64,000 nucleotides of DNA from Bacteroidaceae bacterium. GTDB taxonomy: Bacteria > Bacteroidota > Bacteroidia > Bacteroidales > Bacteroidaceae. Below, piece after piece: positions 2,647 through 62,338 of the stretch. The notes beneath the pieces were generated by a model, which saw nothing but the letters and a program-made list of their open reading frames with translations, did not search any database and was not told the DNA's origin. The stretch spans positions 1 to 64,000 of the forward strand of contig JAGCNZ010000104.1 in assembly GCA_017645655.1 (NCBI GenBank), in the 5' to 3' direction. The stretch's first letter is position 1, and every line of letters starts with the position of its first letter. Both the position numbers and the translations under genes were made by a program.

Positions 2647-2712
2647 GAATCATCATGAACATTCAATTGAATCATCATGAACGTTCAACGAACCTCGCCT
2701 GTGAAGTTTTAT
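2647..2712 (+). repeat. 22-bp tandem array K (two near-identical units plus a degenerate third)
   Basis: Units begin at 2647 and 2669. They differ at two or three positions and share the core TCATGAACRTTCAA; a weaker third unit starts at 2691. The array lies between uxaC and the TlpA-like gene, both on the plus strand. It has the period of the other arrays in the window, but its sequence is further from their theme. Confidence 0.75.
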
Positions 2713-2794
2713 TGTATGATAGGCGACGACAATCAAAAACGGCAGCCAAGTTAACCTTTTTCCTTGCCTCTCTGAACATTTTATGCCTTAAATC

Positions 2795-2825
2795 TTGGCA
2801 GATTTGAAAAGAAAGCGTACTTTTG
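2795..2825 (+). promoter_or_regulatory. Bacteroidetes-type promoter of the TlpA-like gene
   Basis: TTGG at 2795-2798, 19 bases, then TACTTTTG at 2818-2825 match the TTTG / TAnnTTTG consensus. The predicted RNA start is about 45 bases before the ATG at 2877. Confidence 0.7.
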
Positions 2826-2876
2826 CAGATGCAATGTATTGAACGCAACAAAACATTAACTGATAAAAACATCACA

Positions 2877-60800: not shown

Positions 60801-62279
60801 ACGTCGCCAGGCAATCGTAAAGGCCATCCCTACGAAGTGACCTTCCCTCGAACCACAGTCGTCTCGCTTGATGCATGGAATAGAGCGCTCGGCAATGCAA
60901 GTTGCGGACCTGATGTGCTCAACAAATATGAGCGGAAACTTGCGCAAACGCCTTTCTGCTTCATGATTATGCCGATACATGAGGAGACAACGGACACCGT
61001 TCTGACGCAAAGAGGCAGCCTCGGCCTGCCCGTTTGCCAGCCCGTTCGTTTCTCTGACGACGGACATGGCTTTGCCATCCTCAGTTCAAACAATCCTACA
61101 GGTACCATAATATATTATAGTATCGACGGAAGCGACTTCCAACCCTATACAGAGCCCCTCGATATGCGTCAAGGCGGCTTGCTCAGGGCTTATGCTCAGG
61201 CAGAAGGTTTAGCTCAAAGCATCATCACCGAAAAGGCATACGGCTTCTTCGTCGATAAGAGCGAATGGACAATCCATAGCTATGACAGTCAGCAAGGTGG
61301 AAACGAATTAGCATCCAATGCCATCGACGACAACGAGAGTACGATATGGCATACGCAATACAACCCTCAGACGCCTGATTGTCCGCACGAACTGGTGATT
61401 GACATGAAACAGTACTATCGCGTGACAGCCTTCGCATACAAGGGACGCAGCGACGGTTCGAACGGGCGTGTGCAGCGCTACGAAGTTTACTTCACCAACA
61501 ATCCTCATGTATGGGGCGAGCCTGCTGCAAGCGGAACGTTCAACAACACTGCCGACAAGCAAACAGTCAGCATTCCGTCGAAGCCAGAGGCACGTTACAT
61601 GAAGTTCCTCGTACGTACCACTCACGACGGCAGAGGCTATGCATCAGCAGCCGAGCTTTACGTCGAGGCAGAAGCCATGGTGCCCATGTCAATATGGTGG
61701 ATTTCAGCAATACAAACAAACCACCGCTATCGGATTCGTGAGAAGCAGTCAGAGCTTTGTCTGCACTACCAGACGAACTCGAACGAAGGCCATTTCTGCT
61801 TGGGCAACTTCGACGAGAACGACCCGACCTACGTCTTCACATTCGAGAAGGTTCAAGGTTTTACAGCGTTCTACAAACTGAAAGCCGACGGTCATTATAT
61901 GTCGTATGACAGCAGTGCAGGCTGGCGCATCATTTCCTCGACTACAACTCCAACAGACAAGAACGGCTGGATTCAAGTGGAGCGTCTGGAAGGAGGCAAT
62001 GCATACTTGCGATGTGGCTGGCAGAACAGTCGCCTGGTAGGTTTTGACTCACGTAATGTTGGCAGTTACATCTACGCCGACAAGACTGCTCCAGGCGAGT
62101 TCATCCTCGAAGACCTTGACGACGACGACGGGCTGAATGATAATCCAAAATTCAAAAGCACAACCGACAAGCAAGGTTCGACCATAGTCAACCTTAGCGG
62201 TCAGCAAGTCTCGTCAGACTATCGTGGCATTGTCATCATGAAGACTATAGACGGCAAAGGGAAAAAAATTCTACGGTAA
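57852..62279 (+). CDS. Secreted multidomain GH2 beta-galactosidase
   Basis: Predicted exo-beta-galactosidase exported to the periplasm or surface. The ATG at 57852 follows the promoter and begins MKKFLLPLMSLAWLAAFPQ. The 1475 residues contain GH2 N-terminal sandwich (about 50-260), barrel with VVHGVNRHDF, acid/base Glu481 in SAGNESGGGN and nucleophile Glu546 in CENTHAMGNS (canonical CEYxHAMGNS), then the Bgal_small domain (about 760-1060; WLGRGPFDSYLDRK). A chitobiase-type beta domain (about 1080-1135) follows, then an F5/8 discoidin-like module (about 1140-1275), a trefoil-like module (about 1285-1425) and the tail KQGSTIVNLSGQQVSSDYRG...KKILR. The tail resembles that of the 997-residue GH127 protein. 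Confidence 0.92.
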   Translation: MKKFLLPLMSLAWLAAFPQTMTEWDDVTVTSLNRIQSHDLSIPFDDDEAAHSLNLSESPYHLDLNGTWKFRWSALPSKVPSGFYADDYDLSGWDDITVPMPWQVYGIRKSKNWDKPLYVNTRYPFTYTDNFSVMGSRPDYYTYNESMKNPVGCYRRTFTLPEGWTARKTFLRFNGAGHGYYVWVNGQFAGYAEDSYLPSDFDISSFVREGENNVSVQVFRFTSGSFLECQDYWRLTGITRDVYLWSAPETRIGDFFFQTTRLSNAGTSGQAKLTVDLEGGSTSGMKLQMTISDGENIVKETTKTLSTSSNSSQTITFSGIEAWSAEHPKLYDLTIRLLTPDDELVDLRACKIGFRTVSIRTDGALLINGKRLVVHGVNRHDFSQETGRTVSREEMLQDVLTMKRLNVNAVRTSHYPNTPYFYELCDQYGLYVLAEADVECHGNTGLSSVELFRNPMVERNERHVRTFRNHACIFGWSAGNESGGGNNFQSVMEAIKALDTSRITHYEGNSQWSDVTSTMYGSYDNMLSTAKSRKGKTNQKPHIQCENTHAMGNSMGNEIDYYRDIYEPYPAMVGEFVWDWKDQGLKKPVPNKTNQYFWAYGGDFGDNPNDGNFCCNGVVLPDCTPTAKSFNMKGVYQPLDILPIDAEQGTFKVKNKLQQVHFNGYDVAYIISEDGIQIASGMLDDLDLAPWDSTTITIPYEGITFKPSSLYTIRFSTTQREETPWAEAGYEVAASEAVIREATTPLAYQYEGTDTLSISGVGATRTVKGVNFTVTFSGGTLSKYVLAGTALINQPIKLNTFRIPTENDKAQEGNWESLGVRSLSMTTGTWEVERDEANRWVQLSITDTYTTSTQALVFTVNKQFRVYPDGTISVSTVTTPNIEGSVLPKLGFRFEMPYSAENITWLGRGPFDSYLDRKYAAHLGIYHSTVTEQWTDHIRPQETGNKEDVRWLAVTNNSGKGLMYASPSGMATTVGHWRAEDIYTSPGNRKGHPYEVTFPRTTVVSLDAWNRALGNASCGPDVLNKYERKLAQTPFCFMIMPIHEETTDTVLTQRGSLGLPVCQPVRFSDDGHGFAILSSNNPTGTIIYYSIDGSDFQPYTEPLDMRQGGLLRAYAQAEGLAQSIITEKAYGFFVDKSEWTIHSYDSQQGGNELASNAIDDNESTIWHTQYNPQTPDCPHELVIDMKQYYRVTAFAYKGRSDGSNGRVQRYEVYFTNNPHVWGEPAASGTFNNTADKQTVSIPSKPEARYMKFLVRTTHDGRGYASAAELYVEAEAMVPMSIWWISAIQTNHRYRIREKQSELCLHYQTNSNEGHFCLGNFDENDPTYVFTFEKVQGFTAFYKLKADGHYMSYDSSAGWRIISSTTTPTDKNGWIQVERLEGGNAYLRCGWQNSRLVGFDSRNVGSYIYADKTAPGEFILEDLDDDDGLNDNPKFKSTTDKQGSTIVNLSGQQVSSDYRGIVIMKTIDGKGKKILR

Positions 62280-62294
62280 CGCAGGGGAATAAAA

Positions 62295-62338
62295 AACGCA
62301 GCACGTTAAGATTGCCAACGCAGCACGCGAGGATATAA
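62295..62338 (+). repeat. 22-bp tandem array J (two units)
   Basis: Units start at 62295 (AACGCAGCACGTTAAGATTG) and 62317 (AACGCAGCACGCGAGGATAT). The array sits between the GH2 stop and its terminator, in the convergent gap with gdhA. Confidence 0.8.

Follow-up and report, generated by a model that had tools for sequence, protein, structure and literature searches.

The window, by which we mean the whole stretch of 64,000 nucleotides analysed, belongs to contig C106 of G000, an assembly of 2.74 Mb in 130 contigs that is 84% complete, and the named relatives of one of its proteins are Bacteroidales, Prevotellaceae or Bacteroidaceae MAGs. In gaps beside genes such as uxaC, a galactokinase gene and a PD40 gene it carries tandem arrays built of units 22 bp long (Table 1). 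An array was accepted when at least 16 of the 20 bases of its best 20-base stretch matched themselves at lag 22, a strict threshold that misses weak arrays. Eleven places had been listed in the earlier note; nine of these pass (the one given as 28729 with its good match actually at 28788-28853), whilst 62295 is marginal and 49112, with 10/20 at lag 22 and none above 12 at lags 21-24, was not confirmed as an array. TRF, used independently, returned period-22 rows at 2645, 8264, 13225, 13244, 17262, 28787, 33534, 44487 and 57712. Gene calls came from a simple longest-ORF caller, so that some gap classes are wrong, and the array at 50489-50554 is missing from the tallies given below, being hidden under a spurious reading frame.

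Table 1. Arrays of 22-bp units in the window, with the place first listed for each and the best self-match at lag 22 over 20 bases.
Array	Coordinates	Strand	Context	Place first listed	Best match (of 20)
CATG type, two 22-bp units (TTGAATCATCATGAACATTCAA and a near copy)	2645..2688	+	46 bases past the uxaC stop	2647	19
Family A, five CACGTG-like cores, spacing 22-21-22-22	8264..8369	-	glucosaminidase/LysM gene to ABC-F-like gene	8264	20
ACGT type	13225..13289	+	behind Mur-ligase/FolC-like gene	13222	19
Family A	17262..17352	-	convergent gap, galactokinase and GH127 genes	17261	18
CATG-type element, three 22-bp units, outermost half-sites (first, last) identical	28788..28853	+		28729	18
GACACGCCTAGTTACTCAATTA-type units	33524..33608	+	gap between GntR-type regulator gene and radical-SAM reading frame	33525	20
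ACGT type (AACTTAACGTGTGTAGTTTGTA)	44483..44557	-	directly behind PD40 gene	44485	20
Three GCCGCACGCGAAGTTTGG-type units	50489..50554	+		50467	19
ACTAGT cores	57709..57780	+	divergent gap, upstream of GH2 gene	57712	17
Two weak AACGCAGCACGTTAAGATTGCC-type units	62295..62338	+	convergent gap	62295	15 (under the threshold of 16)

At lag 22 the gaps of the window contain 7 clusters, whereas 100 per-gap shuffles averaged 0.01 and never exceeded 1, which places the arrays far above the level expected by chance in shuffled intergenic DNA; between lags 5 and 60 the only other clusters are at 7 (5 clusters), 14 (2), 43 (2) and 44 (3). The period-22 autocorrelation scan proposed in the earlier note was carried out on 335 kb of G000 (the window and 20 further stretches, here called the own sample) and on relatives, the latter as chosen stretches only. 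Lag 22 stands out in the own sample with 41 intergenic clusters against 0, 1, 1 and 0 at lags 20, 23, 24 and 25, lags 7, 14 and 21 having 35, 20 and 13. Merging gave 45 array regions, a few of which are period-7 arrays picked up at lag 21; arrays with a strong period of 7, 8 or 9 or with N were excluded from the unit-cluster, gap-position and RNA-folding counts, and period-11 arrays from the unit-cluster analysis also. The observation is sound and is wider than first reported.

Arrays of 7-bp units (GGATTAG, AATTATG and others) are also found in short gaps, in the window at 3978-4006, 5379-5414, 10659-10750, 14562-14583, 42642-42675 and 46074-46101. Over the own sample, lag-7 arrays occupy 9 of the 19 tandem gaps that measure 61-110 bp; among gaps longer than 110 bp they occupy 8 of 29 divergent, 3 of 39 tandem and none of 15 convergent ones, a distribution complementary to that of the 22-bp arrays.

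Unit classes and the phase between them

Among the types of unit that recur are a looser one consisting of AAC-N12-GTT around an ACGT-like core, and a CATG type in which each 22-mer ends TTG and CAA and the units meet in CAATTG junctions. Near the 45 array regions of the own sample AAC-N12-GTT occurs 39 times, against 0-18 times for the other spacings from 6 to 19, bearing out the theme that the arrays had been said to share, and the distance between successive ACGT is 22 bp in 66 cases and 21 bp in 24. The arms of the two types differ, yet the 22-bp phase is kept: the flanks of 26 CATG arrays hold 12 AAC-N12-GTT dyads, 10 of which stand exactly 22 bp from the outermost CATG centre, and the fixed period described earlier holds from centre to centre even between unlike unit classes. 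Such a constant distance between unlike units is what binding on one face of the DNA predicts; descent from a common lattice could also leave it.

Summed over 46 unit clusters from 119 arrays there are 318 dyad pairs, against 261 (sd 5.3) in shuffled units, but of the five commonest clusters four do not exceed the palindromy of shuffled units. Most units are imperfect as dyads, and perfect palindromes (half-length of at least 5) accordingly form few pairs: 3 at 22 bp in G000, and 8 at 21 bp with 9 at 22 bp in the genus sample. The identity of half-sites is 0.71 inside an array, 0.51 when arrays of one genome are compared with each other and 0.42 across genomes (permutation p 0.024 for within- versus between-genome identity, 22 arrays), in agreement with the local homogenisation suggested at the outset, and one genome holds several unrelated unit types.

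The CATG junction pattern, searched in 18 genomes, matches 235 times in G051, 230 in G020, 85 in G043, 46 in G005, 45 in G000, 16 in G013, 7 in G012, once in G067 and in the other ten not at all. Exactly three units make up 24 of the 25 G043 arrays listed in full, and the three-unit elements at L088:3599 and L088:19561 are almost identical, with their units in one and the same order. When the half-sites of 15 three-unit elements were compared, agreement was highest, among all 15 pairings, between the first and the last (0.90), with 0.67-0.86 for tandem pairs, 0.58-0.70 for unit dyads, 0.56 for junction dyads and 0.54 for the inner pair h2-h5; since the outermost half-sites are most alike and the inner pair is low, the elements have the look of tandem repeats with an inverted end on either side. 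GTT stands at both flanks of the 15 elements, a short CATAGTG flank is common to some G051 and G020 elements, and by eye CATG elements have no long shared flanks. When the two half-sites of each of 35 distinct CATG units are set against each other, the agreement over variable positions is 0.667, owing mainly to positions 5 and 9, against 0.434 (sd 0.039) for random pairing, a null that pools species and so flatters the result. The ACGT-type arrays have neither a fixed unit number nor defined ends.

In family A, the commonest unit cluster in the own sample, the CACGTG-like cores are separated by GGTAAAATGAAATTAT, and one of the steps, around TAATATTTCAAATAT, measures 21 bp. The 22-mer of this family, allowing at most one mismatch, matches 218 times in G000 (109 on each strand) and, by the same rule, not once in 80 other same-genus genomes. 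The step order around the central unit is 22-21-22 in 17 of 19 copies, which were selected by the central 21-bp unit, so that this one step is fixed by construction; the order is reflected in the longer lags of the own sample, with 18 intergenic clusters at lag 43, 15 at lag 65 and 0 at lag 66 (lag 44 has 15). No long flanks shared by the copies were seen by eye. The arrays had been described as near-identical in their units within an array yet different from one another, and this is only partly right: those at 8264 and 17261 share units and belong to this one dispersed family, and many arrays are not locus-specific.

These regularities bear on whether the arrays are neutral minisatellites produced by slippage, that is by replication errors in intergenic DNA. 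The homogeneity within arrays and the identity of tandem pairs are what slippage would leave, and other short periods (7 and 9) occur in the same genomes and gaps. Against this, a single period, 22 with few 21, runs over unrelated units, the CATG class has a near-constant number of units, dispersed copies have the same unit order, and phase is kept between unlike classes. Slippage, one of two mechanisms that the earlier note had suggested for the homogenisation, does not alone explain the near-constant three units, the shared 22-21-22 order or the 218-copy unit. It was set aside as a sole cause on the near-fixed unit counts and the shared step order, and we hold a neutral origin of this kind to be quite unlikely.

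Placement in gaps and RNA folding

Gap position was counted in gaps of 110-900 bp. Within the own sample (a sampled tenth of the genome plus the window) 35 of 84 such gaps carry an array, by class 8 of the 16 convergent gaps, 20 of the 39 tandem ones and 7 of the 29 divergent ones (p 0.06); in the relatives, counted outside L033-L040 and the order-level loci, the numbers are 15 of 51, 41 of 154 and 14 of 65 (p 0.60). All three gap classes thus carry arrays, as had been stated, and a depletion of divergent gaps, apparent in the own sample, was discarded as it is absent in the relatives. In tandem gaps the array is nearer the upstream stop in 15 of 20 cases in the own sample and in 30 of 41 in the relatives, at a median distance behind the stop of 40.5 and 39 bases respectively.

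Arrays behind stop codons could form hairpins in the 3' untranslated RNA and so end transcripts or make them more stable; the 61 arrays examined fold more stably than shuffles (mean z −2.7), and a few (L114, L116 and L126, by eye) end in a hairpin and a T run. The antisense strand folds equally, however (mean z −2.6; p 0.49 by the Wilcoxon test), pairing is poor at the middle positions of the half-sites (0.46 and 0.40), and Rfam gave no match in the window. Terminators are not enriched either: 12 of the 51 tandem gaps that carry an array have one, as do 24 of the 120 that carry none (p 0.68), counted over loci free of N and gaps of up to 600 bp. This agrees with the previous statement that the arrays are not simply terminators, and the terminator reading was dropped for this lack of enrichment; a hairpin function in general appears improbable.

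The unit that precedes the T run at L114, L116 and L126 is, by eye, inverted and would fold with it like an intrinsic terminator, as if units had been recruited. At L143, downstream of galK in G020, at least nine 22-bp units of the AATAAGAGCGTGCCTCATTGAC type follow an ordinary terminator-like hairpin.

Recurrence and turnover in relatives

The gap at the ABC-F gene holds arrays in G000, G067 and G012 and 9-bp repeats in G043 and G020, and is without an array in G005, G008 and G051, where it measures 9, 2 and 43 bases. The ABC-F protein of G005 is 98.5% identical to that of G000, and the flanks of the two gaps are too diverged to define a junction. Behind uxaC, G043 and G005 have CATG-type sequences with other arms, G067 an ACGT-type array and G068 another 22-bp type, and G012 and G060 have a plain terminator-like hairpin. 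Arrays lie behind the Mur-ligase/FolC-like gene in G008, G005 and G012 also, the strict detector passing only that of G008. The PD40 gene is followed by 22-bp arrays with different units in G000 and in five relatives (L029, L030, L031, L032 and G008, the named MAGs L030-L032 possibly duplicating genomes under G handles), and in L033-L040 no array lies directly behind it. Of the orthologous gap pairs, 27 have an array on the G000 side and 55 do not; the strict detector finds one on the side of the relative in 8 of the former and 2 of the latter (p 0.0017), a comparison that is confounded by gap length and in which further arrays visible by eye in orthologous gaps of G067, G005 and G012 were scored as absent. 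Presence and absence at the compared gaps, together with recurrence in orthologous ones, mean that arrays are gained or lost and are also partly persistent.

Elsewhere in the genus, other species carry arrays whose units are 9 bp long and centred on CTAG or CTATAG (e.g. CTATAGAAG), at L103, L106, L049:2472-2575 and L053:1978-2074; those at the ABC-F gap occupy the exact place of the 22-bp array of G000.

Among 21 same-genus genomes, each represented by one or two stretches, several have lag-22 clusters and several have none. Other genera of the family were sampled in twenty stretches (160 kb of G127 and 12 other genomes, the G127 and G139 stretches having been picked because a pattern had matched there), which gave 12 intergenic clusters at lag 22 against 0.5 in shuffles, and 0-3 at the remaining lags from 15 to 40; 6 of the lag-22 clusters are left without G127. 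At four G127 loci, three of them in gaps called convergent, three TTCACCGCGGTGAA-type dyads stand 22 bp apart. Sixteen order-level genomes outside the family (197 kb) showed no lag-22 excess, with 2 clusters, and one G127 array searched in plasmids and in phages had no match in either. The exact CATG junction pattern was found in 5 of 151 family genomes, of which only 9 are from the genus, and the exact ACGT pattern in 1 of the 151. Given a period-22 excess with exact matches so rare, what is common across the family is the spacing and not the sequence. One gap of G127 also holds a long lag-42 array (L190:6507-6989), whose unit consists of two similar halves (ATCGTCACAT...).

Recurrence in orthologous gaps is as compatible with long persistence or a role in the host as it is with mobility. 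On the former side, the arrays would be a binding lattice selected by the host, platforms at gene ends for a nucleoid or insulator-like protein, with units drifting along with the specificity of that protein; a chromosome-organising role for the putative binder is possible. The 22-bp phase between unlike units speaks for such a lattice, as do the recurrence itself, the six species with different 22-bp units behind the PD40 gene, the share of own-sample gaps that carry an array and the half-sites that are more alike within a genome than between genomes. Close relatives without arrays in some of the same gaps speak against it, and so do the same-genus genomes without a lag-22 cluster in the sampled stretch and the several unrelated unit types in one genome; no binder was found. 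We regard host selection as conceivable but doubtful.

Possible origin and related repeat systems

The three-unit constancy, the 22-21-22 order and a unit present in 218 copies in G000 and in none of 80 relatives point to the copying of defined elements. Our tentative preference, held with slightly less than even confidence, is that many of the arrays are dispersed intergenic elements of 22-bp units that spread as small non-autonomous mobile elements, their two-turn spacing letting dimers share one face of the DNA. New copies would come from transposition or template switching, and not from older arrays being converted, and the tandem units would be homogenised by local unequal exchange. A putative dimeric DNA-binding protein, either the mobiliser or a host protein, would set the 22-bp phase, with dimers sitting side by side on one face. 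The array of G000 opposite a 9-base gap in G005, a gain or loss, supports such mobility, as do the defined size, the inverted ends and the shared unit order at the L088 sites. The phase kept between unlike classes, the placement near the upstream stop and the same period in other genera also speak for the preferred reading. The inverted symmetry of three-unit elements at their ends only and the chance-level palindromy of four of the five commonest unit clusters count against it, and no target-site duplication or precise empty site was seen at the two compared gaps, where flanks are too diverged.

Plasmid iterons and partition-site repeats are likewise tandem units about two helical turns apart that are bound cooperatively, and they are sited at one origin or centromere. 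The near-two-turn centre-to-centre spacing is kept here (22 or 21 bp) but, unlike those repeats, the arrays lie in many chromosomal gaps.

Our literature search, which covered few subscription journals, found no description of these arrays, and only papers on Porphyromonas and on REPs were relevant. PMC4596501 describes BrickBuilt as a 23-nt minisatellite inside an IS5-like MITE of Porphyromonas gingivalis; there are 19 copies, which have from 1 to 22.8 units, a leader and a tail segment that are unrelated, and IS5-family-like ends. The paper also mentions that 22-nt tandem repeats had been reported before in strain W83, their places not being given. To judge from that text, the likenesses are an occurrence in Bacteroidales, always intergenic and dispersed, direct repeats of similar length (23 nt there, 22 bp here), imperfect units that vary between copies and possible terminal inverted repeats. 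Unlike BrickBuilt as so described, the present arrays have mostly three units in the CATG class and 218 unit matches in family A, a dyad lattice, several unit classes per genome and no leader or tail that we could see.

REPs are, according to PMC6006769, short, high-copy, palindromic and intergenic, and the TnpA-REP subclass 2.6 is mostly from Bacteroidetes and has atypical flanking structures, which would suit an explanation of the arrays as REPs that a RAYT (Y1 tyrosine) transposase moves about. Set against PMC3733652 and PMC6006769, the arrays resemble REP/BIME/REPIN with RAYT in their short palindromic units, high copy number, intergenic and genome-wide distribution and clustered copies, and differ in their strict 22-bp phase. 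An array of about eight 22-bp units (L210:1777-1958) lies in the gap directly behind a Y1 (PF01797) transposase gene in G013, and in G022 an array lies about 700 bases from such a gene. Both of these Y1 genes are flanked by other hairpins though 22-bp arrays are nearby, and PF01797 had no match in G000, G005, G008, G012 or G020 (assemblies 62-89% complete) though G000 and G020 have 45 and 230 CATG-lattice matches. A GTAG or CGTC tag was not constant in the flanks of the 15 three-unit CATG elements, the one class checked. Mobilisation by RAYT is accordingly the reading to which we give least credence. The arrays miss some defining features of both BrickBuilt-type MITEs and REP/RAYT; judged by the published descriptions, the nearest described relative is BrickBuilt, and the nearest by copy number and position is REP with RAYT.

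A more far-reaching possibility, which we think unlikely, is a family-wide Bacteroidaceae system in which a DNA-binding protein would read a 22-bp dyad lattice at gene ends; the sequence would be rewritten in each species, as in centromere repeats, with spacing and dyad geometry constant, amounting to concerted satellite evolution over hundreds of loci. Present in so many of its longer gaps, the arrays shape much of the non-coding DNA of G000. Their phase is fixed at 22 bp and their letters are free, so that spacing, and not sequence, is the conserved property, and this split makes the idea of a binding protein testable with synthetic arrays. The arrays thereby offer a bacterial model for the concerted evolution of tandem repeats.
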